From Promethearchaeota archaeon (lineage in GTDB: Archaea > Asgardarchaeota > Lokiarchaeia > Sigynarchaeales > SOKP01): a stretch of DNA of 6,216 nucleotides. Below the pieces are notes generated by a model. That model was given only the letters and a program-made list of their open reading frames with translations. It had not been told where the DNA came from and made no database searches. The stretch is from the NCBI GenBank assembly GCA_019057975.1, contig JAHLWJ010000270.1, forward strand, positions 1-6,216, written 5' to 3'. Below, one piece after another: positions 11 to 6,216 of the stretch. Made by a program: the position numbers and the translations under genes. Each line of letters begins with the position of its first letter. The first letter of the stretch is position 1.

Positions 11-1600
11 TTAGTTAGATAACAATAAACTTAATAATTGATCCACAGTAATACGATTTAAATAATTTTTATTTAAACAAGAGTTAATAGCATTATTTAA
101 TTTATAGCTTGGTGTATTTAATAAAAATGGTTGTTGGTAAATAATTGTTTGTAAAACTTCTTTTGTATCATTTACATTTACAAAGGGGTAATGGTATCTT
201 CCTGATGCAACATAATAAATGGTTGCACCTAATCCCCAAATATCAGTCACAAAATAAGATTTATCTTCAATTGTTTCAGGTGCCATAAAAACAGGAGTTC
301 CTGCTTTTCCATAACAACAAGTAAAAGATAAATCAGGCGTGCCTGTTCTACAAATTTTAGATTGACAAGCTAATCCAAAATCTACTAAAACTGGTTCATC
401 TTTTCTAATTAAAATATTTTGAGGTTTAATATCACGATGAATTAACCCTAAGTTATTGATATGTTTTATAGCTTCACATAATTTAATCATAATAGCCATC
501 AAATAAGCATAAAAGTAAGGTTTAGATTTATTTTGTTTGGCCCATTTATCTAAATCCATACCTTCTACATATTCCATTTCAATCAACATTTCACTTCTCA
601 TAGGGTCAAAGTGACTCGCATAATAACAAGCTAGATAAGGTTGACATCTAGGAGATGAAATTTTCACTAAATTATCGATTTCAATTTTAGTTTGATTTGC
701 TATTACCTGTCTTTCACTATATGTTCCTTTAATTTTTATAATTTTTAAAGCTATAATATTTCCAGTTGATTTAACTCTAGCTTTCCAAACCGTTCCTTGG
801 CCACCAGATCCTAATTTTCCTAATAATTCATAAGAGTTTACATTTCTTGTTTCTTGAGCTTGTAGATTTTCGTCAACTTGCATGATAGGTGTAGGTGGTG
901 TTCCTGGAGTTGCAATAATTCTTCTAGGAGAAGCAGGTAAAGGTGTTTTTTTGTAAAAAGGGCTCATGTCAGCAGGCGGCTTGGGGAGATTTCTTCTGGG
1001 TGTAATATCTTGAATAGGTGTTTTTATTACAGGTTTGACTTCTGGAATTCTTCTAGGTGAATCAGGTAAAACCAATTTTTCTTCAATATAACTAACTGGA
1101 TAAGGGGTTGGTTTGCCACTAAAAGGTCTCAGATTAGTCAAACTATCAACATAAGGAAAATCTAATTCTTCTTCAACATAACTAACTGGATAAGGGGTTG
1201 GTTTGCCATCATGGAAAGGTCTCCTAGGAGAAGCAGGCAAAACTATTCTTTTTTTAATATAACTATCTGGATAATGGTCTAAATTACCACTAAAAGGTCT
1301 CAGATTAGTTAAACTATCAACATAAGGAAAATCTAATTCTTCTTCGACATAGCTAACCAATGGTGTAGTTAATGACATTGTATCTGACACTAAAGCAGAA
1401 TTCAGATTCATAGGAGATGCTGGTAAAACTAAACTTTCTTCAACATAACTAACTGGAGGTGTAGTTAATGACATTGTATCAGAAACTAGAGCAGAATTCA
1501 AATTCATAGGTGAAGGAAGGCTTGAGTCAGTTATTTCATAACTAACTAAAGGGCTATTTAATTCCATTGCTTCAGATATGACAGGAATATTAAAAGACAT
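11..1600 (-). CDS. Ser/Thr protein kinase with repetitive SP/TP-rich N-terminal extension
   Basis: This 529-residue protein should transfer phosphate from ATP to Ser/Thr of viral or host proteins. The kinase domain spans about residues 257-527 and looks fully active. The glycine loop is GKLGSGGQGTVW (261-272), the ATP lysine is K286 (ALK), and the probable helix-C glutamate is E307. The catalytic loop HRDIKPQN has D390 and N395, DFG is 407-409, APE is 440-442, the DxWGLG motif begins at D453, and the subdomain XI arginine is R516. The activation segment is slightly long and carries C412, C417, C428 and C429. Residues 1-250 are low complexity: about 30-residue repeats with a core like SYVEExLVLPxSP start near 51, 83, 113, 140 and 170, followed by Pro-rich sequence with four [ST]PRR motifs (S124, S181, T200, S224). 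No membrane segment is seen. The start ATG lies 10 bp after the upstream stop and inside a hairpin loop. No AAAATTGA box was found just upstream, so its promoter is unclear. The kinase assignment is firm; the substrate is unknown. Confidence 0.95.
   Translation of the reverse strand: MSFNIPVISEAMELNSPLVSYEITDSSLPSPMNLNSALVSDTMSLTTPPVSYVEESLVLPASPMNLNSALVSDTMSLTTPLVSYVEEELDFPYVDSLTNLRPFSGNLDHYPDSYIKKRIVLPASPRRPFHDGKPTPYPVSYVEEELDFPYVDSLTNLRPFSGKPTPYPVSYIEEKLVLPDSPRRIPEVKPVIKTPIQDITPRRNLPKPPADMSPFYKKTPLPASPRRIIATPGTPPTPIMQVDENLQAQETRNVNSYELLGKLGSGGQGTVWKARVKSTGNIIALKIIKIKGTYSERQVIANQTKIEIDNLVKISSPRCQPYLACYYASHFDPMRSEMLIEMEYVEGMDLDKWAKQNKSKPYFYAYLMAIMIKLCEAIKHINNLGLIHRDIKPQNILIRKDEPVLVDFGLACQSKICRTGTPDLSFTCCYGKAGTPVFMAPETIEDKSYFVTDIWGLGATIYYVASGRYHYPFVNVNDTKEVLQTIIYQQPFLLNTPSYKLNNAINSCLNKNYLNRITVDQLLSLLLSN
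1030..1510 (-). repeat. Intragenic direct repeats encoding the kinase N-terminal array
   Basis: Three overlapping families of in-frame direct repeats are visible. About 71 bp at 1116-1186 recurs at 1287-1357 (171 bp apart) with three differences that I counted. A 28-bp block at 1091-1118 is identical to 1181-1208 (90 bp apart). About 53 bp at 1362-1414 recurs at 1458-1510 (96 bp apart) with a few differences. All offsets are multiples of three, so the reading frame is kept. The near identity at DNA level suggests recent duplication or slippage rather than ancient protein repeats. Confidence 0.9.
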
Positions 1601-1610: not shown

Positions 1611-2243
1611 TTATATTTTTAATTTTTGTTTTTTAATAATATATCGAAAATCATTTTCAGGTAAATTTTTTGGAACATAAAACCGTAATTTGTTATAAGA
1701 AGAGTTGTTTTTCAAAGCTTCTATAAATTTTGTAGCTGATAAAACATGTGCTTCAGGTCTATCTATAATTAAGAAATCTGTTCTTATACCTTTTCTTTTT
1801 AATTTTGAAATAATATTTCTATATTTATATAATCTTTCCTTTTCTTCATATCTTAAATCTCCTGAATCTTTTTCATTACCTCTTAAATATATAACTACAT
1901 CAATATTTTCAATTTCATCTAAAACGTCATATATCCCATAAGCTTTCTTCAAGATAATTCTATCTTTTGGAAGTAATTTATTTATATATATATTCCATAT
2001 TTTTCTATTTAAATAATAAGGAACACCATGACGTGCTTCACTTCCAATTTGTGAAATATAATATTTAACATTTGGTAAATGAGAATATTTTTCTACTAGA
2101 GAAAAATGACCTCTTGTGGTTGGAGAAAAACATCCACGAAAGAATATAAGATATTTTTTATTTTCTTCAAATTTATAGTCATCATAATAAAATTTTGGTA
2201 TTTTATTATAATATATTATTTTTTCTTTATAATTTTGACACAT
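1611..2243 (-). CDS. HIGH-superfamily nucleotidyltransferase (NMN adenylyltransferase/cytidylyltransferase-like)
   Basis: This 210-residue protein probably joins a nucleotide to a phosphorylated substrate, as NMN adenylyltransferases and phage cytidylyltransferase-like proteins do. The N-terminal nucleotide-binding motif is RGCFSPTTRGH (36-46), matching GxFxPxTxGH with TRGH as the T/HxGH signature. A charged middle motif RGNEKDSGD (121-129) follows, then the C-terminal VLSATKFIEAL (167-177), which matches the SxTxxR region. The arginine normally closing that motif is I174 here, so activity may be altered. About 30 residues precede the first strand. The length is typical for a single-domain member. 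It is divergently arranged with the uridine kinase gene and has an AAAATTGA box on its own strand 65 nt before the ATG, which suggests early expression. The exact substrate (NMN, nicotinate mononucleotide, a phosphosugar or a phosphoalcohol) cannot be read from the sequence. Confidence 0.8.
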   Translation of the reverse strand: MCQNYKEKIIYYNKIPKFYYDDYKFEENKKYLIFFRGCFSPTTRGHFSLVEKYSHLPNVKYYISQIGSEARHGVPYYLNRKIWNIYINKLLPKDRIILKKAYGIYDVLDEIENIDVVIYLRGNEKDSGDLRYEEKERLYKYRNIISKLKRKGIRTDFLIIDRPEAHVLSATKFIEALKNNSSYNKLRFYVPKNLPENDFRYIIKKQKLKI

Positions 2244-2907: not shown

Positions 2908-2924
2908 TTTTAAATTATAAATTA
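2898..2924. terminator. Bidirectional 3'-end palindrome shared by convergent genes
   Basis: Arms 2898-2910 (TAATTTATAATTT) and 2912-2924 (AAATTATAAATTA) are perfect 13-bp reverse complements around one central base. The palindrome contains both stop codons: the TAA of the uridine kinase gene (2905-2907) and the TAA of the oxidase-like gene on the other strand (2924-2922). Being symmetrical, it can form the same hairpin in both transcripts, matching the mimivirus polyadenylation hairpin rule. The function is inferred. Confidence 0.75.
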
Positions 2925-5003
2925 ATAAGGTTTATATGATGAATAAGAGAGAGAATCATCATAAGAAAGATTTCTTCTTGATTTATCGCAAGAAGAACTA
3001 TCATAACTTGATCTTCTTGAACTGCCAGAACTATCATAACTTGATCTTCTTGAACTATCATAACTTGAACTTCCATAGCTATCGTAACTTGATCTTCTTG
3101 AACTACCGGAACTTGATCTATCATAACTTGAGCAACTACATAAACTTACGCTCATACCACTTCCGCAACTACATGTGATTAAACTTTTAGTTAATTTTTC
3201 TAAAGAATAAGATAAATGGTTATTTGACCCAGAATCACGGATTACACTTTTACTAGATTTTGAATAAGATGGTTTAGTTAAACAAGATGAATAATCTCCA
3301 CTAGAATAAGATGAATAAGAATTTAAGTAACCAGAATAAGATGAATAATTCTTTCTATCACATTCAGCTATAATCTGAACAAACCCTGCTTGTCCTAAAC
3401 TAGACCGTGTTAACATACTAGAAGTGAATATCCATCCTCCTGATCTACATTCAGTTGGTTCTTTCCCATAAGCTACAATATCTCTTCCTTTAGATGAAAA
3501 TCTAACAGCTAATCTGACAACTGTCTTAGAGCGATCTCCACATGGTTTGGCTGGAATATAAATAGTATCTTTATTTTCTAATACTTTATTTATTTGTCTA
3601 TCTTTATCATCTTCACTGATATATAGTGTATCTAAATGTTGAAATGTGAATCCATGCAGATAAAAATTGTTAGCTAAATCTGATGTATTAGTTATTTCAA
3701 TAATATAAGTTCCATCTTCAATAACAATAGGTGCATCTTTTCTAGATAAACAATCAAAAGGGATTCCTTCTCTGCATTCTCTATAAGCAAAGAAATCTAT
3801 ATTTCCATCACAATCAGGCTCATAGTTACCGTAATATACAGGAATAACAGGAGTGCAATGATCTACCTTAATCTTTTTGATTTTCTTTAATTCTAAAGGA
3901 ACTTCTAACTGTTCTTCATCACAATGTTCATCTATCACCTTAAATGTAACTAATAATTCCTTTTCATCACATTTTTCAACATCAATTAGTTCACAATTTC
4001 CACATTCATCCTTTTCCACCTTTTGAATTCCTCTTGGGTTGGAAGTGTATAAACGAATATTATCATATCTGGGAACAAATACAACTTCAGCTCTTTCCCC
4101 TGTGGTTAAAACTAAACCATTATCTTCTTTAATTAAAATGGGCTTTTCTAATAATCCTTGATCTCCACCAATACGAATCATATCATGACCTTCTAGAGTA
4201 ATTTTCATAAATCTGTCTGTTGCACAATTCAATAAGTATAATCTAACTGGAACATCTTTAGTTAAAGTGATACACCCGTTATAAACACCGTTGGTCAACA
4301 AAACATTTCCTAAAATCCCGTTTACTTGTTGACTTGCCCTTTCGCATGGCTCTGTAGAAAAATCAATATCAACTTGATTAGAAGAGTCTAATTTTAGATC
4401 AGAAAAGGCTAAAATCTTATCAGTTCTAGGAAGAGAATAACATTCATCTTCGTCGTGATCTTTTACTAAAATTACCCCATATAATCCTTTCTGAACTTGT
4501 TCTCTAGAATTAACATCACTGTGATACCAATATAACCCTGCATTATTTAATTTAAATTTATAATCAAATGAATCACCAGGTTGAACAGGGAATTGAGAAA
4601 TTGAACTTCCATCCATGTTGGCAGGTGTCATTAAACCATGCCAGGTAATAGTGGTAGGTTCACAAATATCATTGAAAAAATGCACAACAAGTTCATCACC
4701 CTTCTTAGCTTCAATCAAAGGTCCTGGAAAAGATTTATTGTAATTATAAAGTTTTGTAGCATCTCCTGAAAGAATCTGCACTTCATTATCTGAAGCTGTC
4801 AAATTTACTTCCACTACATTTGGGTCACAAGAAATATTTTCAGCTACACTTGGATATTCAGCACACTTGCATTCTTCTTTAACTGTTTTTGAACTTTCTC
4901 TTGTCAAACACATTACCAAAATAACAATTAAAATAATAGCAATAGCTACAACAAGTATAATATACCAATATTGCCCGTCATTACTTTCTTGACATGAACT
5001 CAT
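2922..5003 (-). CDS. Membrane-anchored multicopper oxidase-like protein, copper ligands mostly lost
   Basis: This 693-residue protein has a 12-residue N-terminus, one hydrophobic segment at about 13-33, a Cys-rich ectodomain with the three-cupredoxin layout of multicopper oxidases, and a low-complexity tail. Family hallmarks include FPGPLIEAKKGD (92-103), WHGLMTPANMDG (121-132), PVQPGDSFDYKF (139-150) and GLYWYHSD (156-163) followed by GLYGVILV (173-180). Domain 2 covers about 190-320 and domain 3 about 380-547. The copper sites are eroded. HWH is TWH (T120, H122), HxH is HSD (H161, D163), and HPxHLHG is NNFYLHG (445-451). HCHIxxHxxxGM aligns without gaps to residues 527-538 (TSSMLTRSSLGQ), losing every ligand. 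Of 12 usual ligands only H122, H161 and H450 remain, so laccase-type oxidation is unlikely. There are 27 cysteines in total. Residues 550-693 are rich in Ser, Tyr and Arg. A structural or receptor-like role in the particle or membrane is inferred. The start ATG directly precedes the anchor. Confidence 0.88.
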   Translation of the reverse strand: MSSCQESNDGQYWYIILVVAIAIILIVILVMCLTRESSKTVKEECKCAEYPSVAENISCDPNVVEVNLTASDNEVQILSGDATKLYNYNKSFPGPLIEAKKGDELVVHFFNDICEPTTITWHGLMTPANMDGSSISQFPVQPGDSFDYKFKLNNAGLYWYHSDVNSREQVQKGLYGVILVKDHDEDECYSLPRTDKILAFSDLKLDSSNQVDIDFSTEPCERASQQVNGILGNVLLTNGVYNGCITLTKDVPVRLYLLNCATDRFMKITLEGHDMIRIGGDQGLLEKPILIKEDNGLVLTTGERAEVVFVPRYDNIRLYTSNPRGIQKVEKDECGNCELIDVEKCDEKELLVTFKVIDEHCDEEQLEVPLELKKIKKIKVDHCTPVIPVYYGNYEPDCDGNIDFFAYRECREGIPFDCLSRKDAPIVIEDGTYIIEITNTSDLANNFYLHGFTFQHLDTLYISEDDKDRQINKVLENKDTIYIPAKPCGDRSKTVVRLAVRFSSKGRDIVAYGKEPTECRSGGWIFTSSMLTRSSLGQAGFVQIIAECDRKNYSSYSGYLNSYSSYSSGDYSSCLTKPSYSKSSKSVIRDSGSNNHLSYSLEKLTKSLITCSCGSGMSVSLCSCSSYDRSSSGSSRRSSYDSYGSSSYDSSRRSSYDSSGSSRRSSYDSSSCDKSRRNLSYDDSLSYSSYKPY
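2994..3116 (-). repeat. Short in-frame repeats encoding the SRRSSYDS tail
   Basis: The 20-bp unit TAACTTGATCTTCTTGAACT (plus strand) occurs exactly at 3004-3023, 3037-3056 and 3085-3104, with partial copies at 3061 and 3124. Spacings of 33 and 48 bp keep the frame. On the minus strand it encodes the SRRSSYDS units at about residues 635, 651 and 662 of the oxidase-like protein. This is a low-complexity coding repeat rather than a CRISPR array, since the units are short, unevenly spaced and inside a gene. Confidence 0.88.
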
Positions 5004-5063: not shown

Positions 5064-5903
5064 TTAATTTTTCTTATAATTTGATTTTTTCTTATTATTA
5101 TCATACGCATGCATAAAAATAAGTGTTGTTTTCTGATTTTTATTTGCAGGATTCTTAATTCTAGTTTTCTTAGTCATTAGTAAAGCGAAAAGCGCATCAT
5201 TTGTATTTGGATTAAATGTAATAAAAACAATTCTACCTCCATTTTTAGAATCCACAAAGTTTACAGATGGATAATCTTTTCCTTGATTATCTGAAATATA
5301 AGCTGAAAAAATAGATTTAAAAGCTTCAACTGGAATCCAATCTGGAACTTTTCGAGAACAAATGCGGTTTTTAATCATGGTTTTATCAGGTTCTGTCGCA
5401 TAAGCTCTGCTAATTTCAAAATAACCAATTTGAGGCACATCTTCAGTTTCTTCCAATTCTTTTAAATGTTTGATTTGTTCTTCATCGTAATTATAACCTG
5501 GAATTGTAATTAATGGAGGCAATTCTTCTTTAATTTTTGGTTGAATTAAAGAATCTTGTTCCTCGATAATATCAATCCAACTTTTATCTCCATCAGATTT
5601 AACTGGGGTTTCAGGTGGTGTCCAATTTGGATCAAGATATTCTCTGATTCTTTCACTTCCATCTGGATTTCTTCCTAGAAGCATCCAATAAATTTTCGAA
5701 TCTGATACACGAATATAACCAAATCCAAAATATTTTCCATCACTGCCTACAATTAGATTAACTTTAAATTTACATTTTGTATTATAACCTAAAACTTTAT
5801 CTGCCTGTTCAATTGCTCCTGTTAAACATTCGGAAACCTGAGCTTCTGTAGCTACACCAGATTCTACGTAAAGAGTATGTTCATCATGCATACGAATAGA
5901 CAT
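5064..5903 (-). CDS. Uncharacterised protein, possible RRM-like halves
   Basis: I do not recognise a named family for this 279-residue protein. No signal peptide or membrane segment is visible. Residues 8-80 have a pattern recalling an RNA recognition motif: a first strand TLYVES (10-15), a helix around 18-38, then KYFGFGYIRV (57-66), which resembles the RNP1 signature. A linker rich in Pro and acidic residues covers about 90-155. The C-terminal part (about 185-245) has a helix from 190, YPSVNFV (211-217), GGRIVFITFNP (222-232) and DALFALLM (236-243), which could be a second beta-alpha-beta unit. The protein ends in a Lys/Asn-rich basic tail (268-279). An RNA-binding role is therefore possible but is only a pattern-level inference. 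The gene is divergent from the collagen-like gene (65 bp apart) and is followed by its own 3' hairpin, so it is probably transcribed as a single unit. The start ATG at 5903 fits the gap; M5 is an alternative start. Confidence 0.75.
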   Translation of the reverse strand: MSIRMHDEHTLYVESGVATEAQVSECLTGAIEQADKVLGYNTKCKFKVNLIVGSDGKYFGFGYIRVSDSKIYWMLLGRNPDGSERIREYLDPNWTPPETPVKSDGDKSWIDIIEEQDSLIQPKIKEELPPLITIPGYNYDEEQIKHLKELEETEDVPQIGYFEISRAYATEPDKTMIKNRICSRKVPDWIPVEAFKSIFSAYISDNQGKDYPSVNFVDSKNGGRIVFITFNPNTNDALFALLMTKKTRIKNPANKNQKTTLIFMHAYDNNKKKSNYKKN

Positions 5904-5968: not shown

Positions 5969-6216
5969 ATGGATTGTAAAGACAATTGTAAATATCAATG
6001 CTGTAGTGGACCAAGAGGATCTAGAGGTTGCCCTGGAGAAAGAGGGAAAAGAGGCAAAATTGGACCAACTGGGATGACAGGTGCCACAGGAATTAAAGGA
6101 GATCCCGGTATGACTGGTCCAGCTGGAGGAGCTACTGGAGATAAAGGACCAGATGGAGATAAAGGAATGACTGGAGATAAAGGAATGACTGGTGCACAAG
6201 GAATGACTGGCGATAA
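5969..6216 (+). CDS. Collagen-like protein, 5' part (runs off window)
   Basis: The frame is open from ATG at 5969 to the window end, giving 82 complete residues without a stop. The first 13 residues form a short head with C3, C7, C11 and C12. From G14 on, the chain is almost pure Gly-X-Y, for example GPRGSRGCPGERGKRGKIG, with C21 within the repeat. One break occurs at GPAGGATGDK, where an extra residue shifts the triplet register. Three 18-bp units at 6155-6208 encode GDKGMT, GDKGMT and GAQGMT. Lysines often fall in the Y position, the place where collagen lysines are hydroxylated and glycosylated; mimivirus encodes such a hydroxylase (known for that virus, not seen here). Triple-helical collagen-like proteins are associated with mimivirus-like particle fibrils. 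Base composition is richer in G and C than the neighbours, as expected for Gly/Pro codons. There is no obvious signal peptide. Full length is unknown. Confidence 0.93.
   Translation, partial: MDCKDNCKYQCCSGPRGSRGCPGERGKRGKIGPTGMTGATGIKGDPGMTGPAGGATGDKGPDGDKGMTGDKGMTGAQGMTGD
6155..6208 (+). repeat. 18-bp tandem repeat in the collagen-like gene
   Basis: GGAGATAAAGGAATGACT occurs twice in direct tandem (6155-6172, 6173-6190), followed by a diverged third unit (6191-6208). Each unit encodes two Gly-X-Y triplets. This is typical of collagen-like genes expanding by slippage; the array may continue past the window end. Confidence 0.9.

Follow-up and report, generated by a model that had tools for sequence, protein, structure and literature searches.

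Can a protein that keeps the multicopper oxidase (MCO) fold still act as a copper enzyme when most of its copper ligands are gone, and if not, what might the fold be used for? This question is raised by an open reading frame on a 6,216-nucleotide stretch of DNA, hereafter the window, filed under a Promethearchaeota archaeon assembly (contig JAHLWJ010000270.1). A first-pass annotation had read the protein as an enzyme fold reused on a viral membrane or surface, or else as a remodelled metal site.

Results

The window protein has an MCO fold with three of twelve copper ligands

The gene lies at 2922..5003 on the reverse strand and encodes a protein of 693 amino acids with an ATG start. Its kinship with MCOs, already recognized in the first-pass annotation, is far from chance: we obtained matches to Pfam Cu-oxidase_3 (E 1.3e-30) and Cu-oxidase_2 (E 1.2e-5), and a PDB search matched entry 3zx1 at E 2.1e-31. 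The three-domain fold covers residues 45-547 (3363..4871, reverse strand) and is intact in the predicted structure. By fold and descent the protein belongs to the MCO superfamily, that is, to proteins built of cupredoxin domains with Pfam Cu-oxidase signatures. At the level of curated NCBIfam families, comprising CueO, CopA, ascorbate oxidases, laccase, FtsP, copper nitrite reductase and PhsA, all eight matches fell far under the cut-offs; the best was CueO, with 109.7 versus 525 bits, and FtsP scored 69.7 versus 581.

In a 73-row alignment, the 12 canonical copper positions correspond to T120, H122, H161, D163, N445, Y448, H450, T527, S528, S529, R533 and Q538 of the window protein. Following laccase structures, we take the type 1 ligands to be His at 445, Cys at 528, His at 533 and Met at 538, the type 2 ligands to be His at 120 and 448, and the type 3 ligands to be His at 122, 161, 163, 450, 527 and 529. 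On the reverse strand, motif I (residues 120-122, 4638..4646) reads T-W-H, so that the type 2 histidine is lost and the type 3 histidine kept. Motif II (residues 161-163, 4515..4523) reads H-S-D, with one type 3 histidine kept and the second turned into aspartate, and motif III (residues 445-450, 3654..3671) reads N-N-F-Y-L-H, in which the type 1 and type 2 histidines are lost and the type 3 histidine is kept. In motif IV (residues 527-538, 3390..3425), HCH...H....M has become T-S-S...R....Q. The window protein retains 3/12 ligands, H122, H161 and H450: the His-Cys-His(-Met) set of the type 1 site is replaced by N445, S528, R533 and Q538, and the trinuclear site keeps those three of its eight histidines.

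A profile-profile alignment of 21 rows of the clade described below against 22 rows with intact ligands (E 6e-127, 496 columns) was gap-free at all four motifs, which excludes misalignment as the cause of ligand loss. Together with the 73-row alignment, it bears out the motif changes that the first-pass annotation had listed (TWH, HSD, NNFYLHG and a ligand-free 527-538), and the residue numbers given there were correct. Its claim that every type 1 and type 2 ligand is lost, with H122, H161 and H450 as sole survivors, agrees with our ligand table. The reference motifs need a small correction that leaves the outcome unaffected, as the nearest relatives with intact ligands carry HPH, and mostly HNFHxHG or HPFHxHG, not HSH and HPxHLHG.

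Six copper ligands were lost before the clade spread

Relatives were sought among 5.8 billion proteins; the 7999 candidates sharing most words were scored, yielding 94 matches. The 73-row alignment contains the window protein and 72 of these 94 matches, with 22 left out. A tree was built from 70 of the 73 rows by a quick method without bootstrap, dropping the fragments P0022, P0069 and P0079 and excluding the ligand columns. The 37 closest matches (P0001-P0037) grouped with the window protein, and this clade (37 tree rows, the window protein and 36 matches, without P0022) received an SH-aLRT support of 100, with a stem length of 1.27 changes per column. The per-row ligand tallies also exclude P0022; across these 37 rows, two to six of the 12 ligands are retained. 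P0001 is a twin of the window protein (98-99% identity) with the same count of 3/12.

The next relatives, P0038-P0060, which we label cellular-type for their intact ligands, carry 12/12 ligands in 23/23 rows, as do the further cellular-type matches P0141-P0149 in 9/9. These bacterial-type MCOs, exemplified by the Marinicella marina protein P0049, resemble the window protein in the motifs around the ligands at 34-41% identity (P0038-P0060); they differ from it in their complete ligand sets and in N-termini that resemble signal peptides by eye. Bacterial genomes are rich in such relatives, found in at least 577 of 590 candidate stretches, with the best 80 among the matches listed. Thirteen cellular-type rows form the sister group of the clade, with weak support (81).

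We next mapped the ligand changes on the tree. Positions 120, 163, 445, 527, 528 and 538 each changed once, and all six of these ligands are absent from 38/38 clade rows. Therefore, three of the four type 1, one of the two type 2 and two of the six type 3 ligands were gone before the clade spread. Changes were repeated at 448 (five times), 529 (five) and 533 (nine), and all three of these ligands are lost in the window protein. Among the seven additional clade-like matches P0134-P0140, which entered the ligand tables only and four of which are without half the motifs, P0136, P0137 and P0139 retain just H122 and H161.

The loss is specific to the copper sites as judged from aligned columns, though the contrast is imperfect. 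We identified 90 columns that do not vary among the 23 cellular-type rows; of these, 60/78 non-ligand columns versus 4/12 ligand columns are retained in at least half of the clade rows, and the window protein itself retains 63/78 versus 3/12. The Fisher p of 0.004 for ligand versus non-ligand columns is descriptive only, as neither columns nor rows are independent. Ten of the 78 non-ligand columns are wholly lost in the clade; two of these ten are invariant histidines outside the copper sites, which correspond to positions 327 and 393 of the window protein.

Do these losses simply mark a gene decaying without function? Ligands are still changing within the clade, as decay would have it, but the proteins measure 458-768 amino acids across 38 rows (the shortest being a fragment), 63/430 scored domain columns are invariant in the clade, and the lost ligands have given way to near-fixed residues: N445 in 38/38 rows, S528 in 36/38 (otherwise Thr) and Q538 in 36/38 (otherwise Asp). 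We regard decay as extremely improbable. A working oxidase whose ligands are supplied by other residues is also highly improbable. All that speaks for it is the name FtsP/CotA-like multicopper oxidase that JGI attaches, at domain level, to 6/37 clade matches. Against it, 38/38 rows carry Ser or Thr instead of the type 1 Cys and Gln or Asp instead of the Met, the NCBIfam scores stay far below the curated cut-offs in 8/8 cases, and the aligned motif stretches hold no other conserved His, Cys or Met in or beside the places of the lost ligands. M530 of the window protein corresponds to Met in 5/37 clade rows and to Ile in 27. Judged by its residues, the clade cannot perform multicopper chemistry by the known mechanism, and copper oxidase activity of the window protein is very unlikely.

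Within the clade, P0031-P0036 form a short subgroup with Arg or Tyr at position 161, no tail and one to ten cysteines; they are possibly paralogues of the tailed form.

The clade carries a strong membrane anchor and, in most members, many cysteines and a serine-rich tail

The N-terminal membrane anchor noted at first pass was recovered as a helix at residues 13-35 of the model (4899..4967, reverse strand), with a Kyte-Doolittle 19-mer mean of 3.76. The corresponding 19-mer mean is 2.5-4.0 in each of the 37 clade rows with an N-terminus, compared to a range of -0.1 to 2.5 among the 23 cellular-type rows. Since 18/23 of the latter also exceed the usual mark of 1.6, the anchor is distinct in strength and not in presence. 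The N-terminal signals of the cellular-type rows look like signal peptides or lipoprotein signals by eye.

The window protein has 27 cysteines, the number counted before, versus one to five in cellular-type rows; at its 27 cysteine positions a single Cys was seen among the cellular-type rows, in one row at column 32. Within the clade, 12 of the 27 columns hold Cys in at least 23/38 rows, and 14 do so in at least 19/38. Because cysteine co-occurrence is confounded by descent, we drew no disulfide pairs from it.

The C-terminal tail (residues 549-693, 2925..3359, reverse strand) is rich in Ser and Tyr (39% and 12%) and mostly disordered, with model pLDDT below 50 at residues 577-599, 606-618 and 620-693. 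Its repetitive nature, seen at first pass, was confirmed by TRF, which placed tandem repeats of 24 and 33 bases within 2994-3131. The tail of P0001 is eight residues longer. In the 25 clade rows with the longer, Ser-rich form, Ser makes up 27-47% of the tail. A cysteine motif, C-x-CGSG...C-x-C, is conserved at residues 611-624 (3132..3173, reverse strand): each of its four cysteines occurs in 26-28/38 clade rows, and C-x-CGSG in 23/29 rows with a tail of more than 40 residues. The tail and cysteine gains are not universal, since P0031-P0036 are tailless and cysteine-poor.

The remaining histidines are unlikely to form a metal site in the window protein

We next considered whether the retained histidines could hold a single metal. 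Presumably H122, H161 and position 529 bind one type 3 copper and H450 the other. The trio H122, H161 and H529 is present in 22/37 clade rows, in 21/37 together with H450; taken singly, His occupies position 529 in 28/38 rows, H122 is kept in 36/37 and H450 in 36/38, and position 163 is Asp in 28/38. These counts leave room for a remodelled metal protein, in which one type 3 position would be kept as a three-histidine copper or zinc site, maybe with H448, H450 or D163, and would serve for binding or weak chemistry and not for multicopper oxidation. We consider this unlikely: the trio is broken in 15/37 rows, position 529 changed five times on the tree, and positions 161 and 529 rank only at the 43rd and 39th conservation percentile of scored domain columns. 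In the window protein the trio is broken because position 529 is Ser. A single-metal site thus appears possible in many relatives and unlikely in the window protein. The first-pass suggestion of a site formed by H122, H161, H450 and D163 is not supported for this protein, as its third trio histidine is S529 and H450 would sit on the other copper by the laccase-based assignment.

The retention of H122 and H450 nevertheless exceeds what plain neglect would leave, which counts against a pure pseudoenzyme. Two further histidines outside the 12 aligned copper ligands, H273 and H456, occur in 37/38 and 38/38 clade rows and in 16/23 and 19/23 cellular-type rows.

A neighbouring gene points to a pithovirus-like source

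The main evidence for a viral source is a cytidylyltransferase-like neighbour of 210 amino acids at 1611..2243 (reverse strand), the one neighbouring gene of giant-virus kinship. It is 41% identical to the Pithovirus LCPAC302 protein A0A481Z7Z2 (TM 0.86), which heads a list of 24 viral matches at E <=0.001. Its model has a mean pLDDT of 88 from 18 rows, and it contains what we take to be a T-x-GH-type motif. Its 39 database matches begin with the window's own protein. Since the neighbour so resembles the LCPAC302 protein, the window probably derives from a pithovirus-like giant virus. LCPAC302 is described as a pithovirus-like bin, recovered from sediments in the area of the Loki's Castle vent (PMC6401483). 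Contigs of equal size (9954 and 11001 bases) carry relatives of the neighbour and of the MCO protein, which suggests that the two genes stay together across relatives. The window has 29% GC and is 96% coding over six chosen genes on both strands, none of which (0/6) is preceded by a Shine-Dalgarno-like site.

Against this source, five scans of viral_contigs, with the MCO protein, the 21-row clade alignment, the 210-residue neighbour, its alignment and the uridine kinase, gave no relative; the intact cellular-type alignment as query found six loci there. PHROGs gave zero matches for 3/3 window proteins. Sixteen records of a phage collection matched remotely at 26-33% identity, none spanning 80% of the query. 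BFVD contained no close relative of the MCO protein. Two of its five matches at E <=0.001 bear MCO names, a Satyrvirus copper oxidase (16% identity, 1102 amino acids) and a Hyperionvirus multicopper oxidase (10%, 863 amino acids), and both are remote and longer than the window protein.

The 210-residue gene is separated by a divergent spacer of 76 bases (2244-2319) from a uridine kinase identified by Pfam. The spacer contains AAAATTGA, the early-promoter word of mimiviruses, at 2283-2290 on the forward and 2309-2316 on the reverse strand. It precedes the uridine kinase by 37 bases, assuming that the ATG at 2320 is the start, and the 210-residue gene by 73 bases. The word is not enriched in the window (3 observed vs 2.13 expected), and no copy precedes the MCO gene within 150 bases; only its position on both strands of the divergent spacer is suggestive. 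The Loki's Castle report describes motifs resembling AAAnTGA in most bins, located 20-40 bases upstream of genes (PMC6401483).

The other genes of the window comprise a protein kinase (11-1600, reverse strand) whose residues 257-524 match Pkinase at E 6.3e-38 and whose N-terminal part is repetitive and Pro/Ser-rich, a 279-residue protein (5064-5903, reverse strand) with no Pfam match at E <=1 and none in PHROGs, and a collagen-like Gly-X-Y reading frame with an 18-base tandem repeat (5969-6214, forward strand) that runs off the window.

Discussion

Starting from the computed fold, ligand loss, clade, order of loss, anchor, cysteines and tail, we find it reasonably likely that the protein is a copper-free pseudoenzyme of MCO fold that now serves as a scaffold or virion protein anchored in a membrane; the transfer with its direction, the absence of copper and the location are what we infer. 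The ancestor of a giant-virus group would have acquired a secreted MCO of bacterial type. On the clade stem, one His, the Cys and the Met of the type 1 site were lost, along with one type 2 and two type 3 ligands. The fold was retained, with a membrane anchor where cellular relatives have their signal peptide, and most members gained conserved cysteines and a disordered Ser-rich tail. Such a protein would bind no copper; its cysteines may form disulfides that cross-link the domain, and the domain may sit on a viral or virus-modified membrane. It might work through contacts, serving as a scaffold, a coat or a means of attachment.

Part of the first-pass proposal of an enzyme fold reused as a viral membrane or surface protein stands. 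The anchor and the ligand loss, with six losses clade-wide, support it, and the 41% identical neighbour, the coding density, the lack of Shine-Dalgarno sites and the low GC indirectly support a viral source; a place in or on the virion would be a further step, and a scaffold role is suggested by analogy. In its fullest form, which we offer as a tentative possibility, a giant-virus lineage would have taken up a bacterial-type copper oxidase, dismantled its copper sites along a single branch and turned it into a coat or attachment protein that is anchored in a membrane and braced by cysteines.

Viruses have reused other enzyme folds. Vaccinia D8 is an inactive membrane protein of carbonic-anhydrase fold, a parallel that we do not use as evidence. 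The GMC-oxidoreductases of mimivirus belong to an enzyme family other than MCOs. They are reported to make up the genomic fiber and, in the case of one of them, surface fibrils too; in qu_946 and qu_143, an enzyme fold serves a giant virus as a structural component, and a Cys-Pro-rich domain addresses it to the particle surface (PMC11042495).

The copper-free fold may instead work in the infected cell and not in the particle, anchored in the secretory or surface membrane and binding host partners, for example as a decoy, a receptor ligand or a chaperone-like protein. This possibility, which overlaps with the scaffold or virion protein and does not exclude it, is somewhat doubtful. An anchor with a large folded domain would suit it. 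Cedratvirus is a pithovirus relative; a search for the terms copper and oxidase in the main text on its particle proteome found them for amoeba proteins only, so the proteome, as far as that text extends, lends no support to a particle role and agrees with a role in the cell (PMC12724359). Against this stands the single precedent of mimivirus, a giant virus in which a reused oxidoreductase fold makes up parts of the particle (PMC11042495).

Among cellular proteins, the closest parallel is SufI, described as a metal-free MCO fold and proposed scaffold in bacterial division (PMC2661564). The window protein fits SufI-like copper-free MCOs as a kind and not as an orthologue, sharing the fold and the loss of most copper residues. 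SufI/FtsP of Escherichia coli (PDB 2uxt, 2uxv) is a Tat substrate of the septal ring, whereas the window protein is membrane anchored, Cys-rich and tailed. Because the nearest rows to the clade, in a tree of the clade and its matches without SufI, have all ligands, its loss appears independent of that in SufI. Insect MCORP and plant SKU5 are likewise MCO relatives that lost most copper residues, and recombinant Tribolium MCORP is reported to have had very little copper and no detected oxidase activity (PMC4203857). Both retain two type 2 histidines, whereas the clade lost one on its stem and often the other, and both are cellular, in contrast to the viral reading of the clade.

Copper-free MCO folds have thus already been described in cells; their occurrence as a viral clade appears to be new, and we found no description of a copper-free viral MCO in the accessible parts of the giant-virus and MCO literature, mostly open papers. 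Giant-virus MCO genes have been read as aids to iron uptake (PMC7162819; repeated in PMC9270025). If our reading is true, some of the giant-virus 'multicopper oxidases' that domain matches have placed among the iron-uptake enzymes may instead be structural proteins of virion or membrane. A domain search would call the clade multicopper oxidases, as JGI does for the six matches above, a warning against metabolic claims drawn from domain matches. The ordered series from 12 ligands in cellular-type proteins to six and then two within the clade would trace an enzyme fold becoming a non-enzyme in a virus, with intermediates that can be tested.
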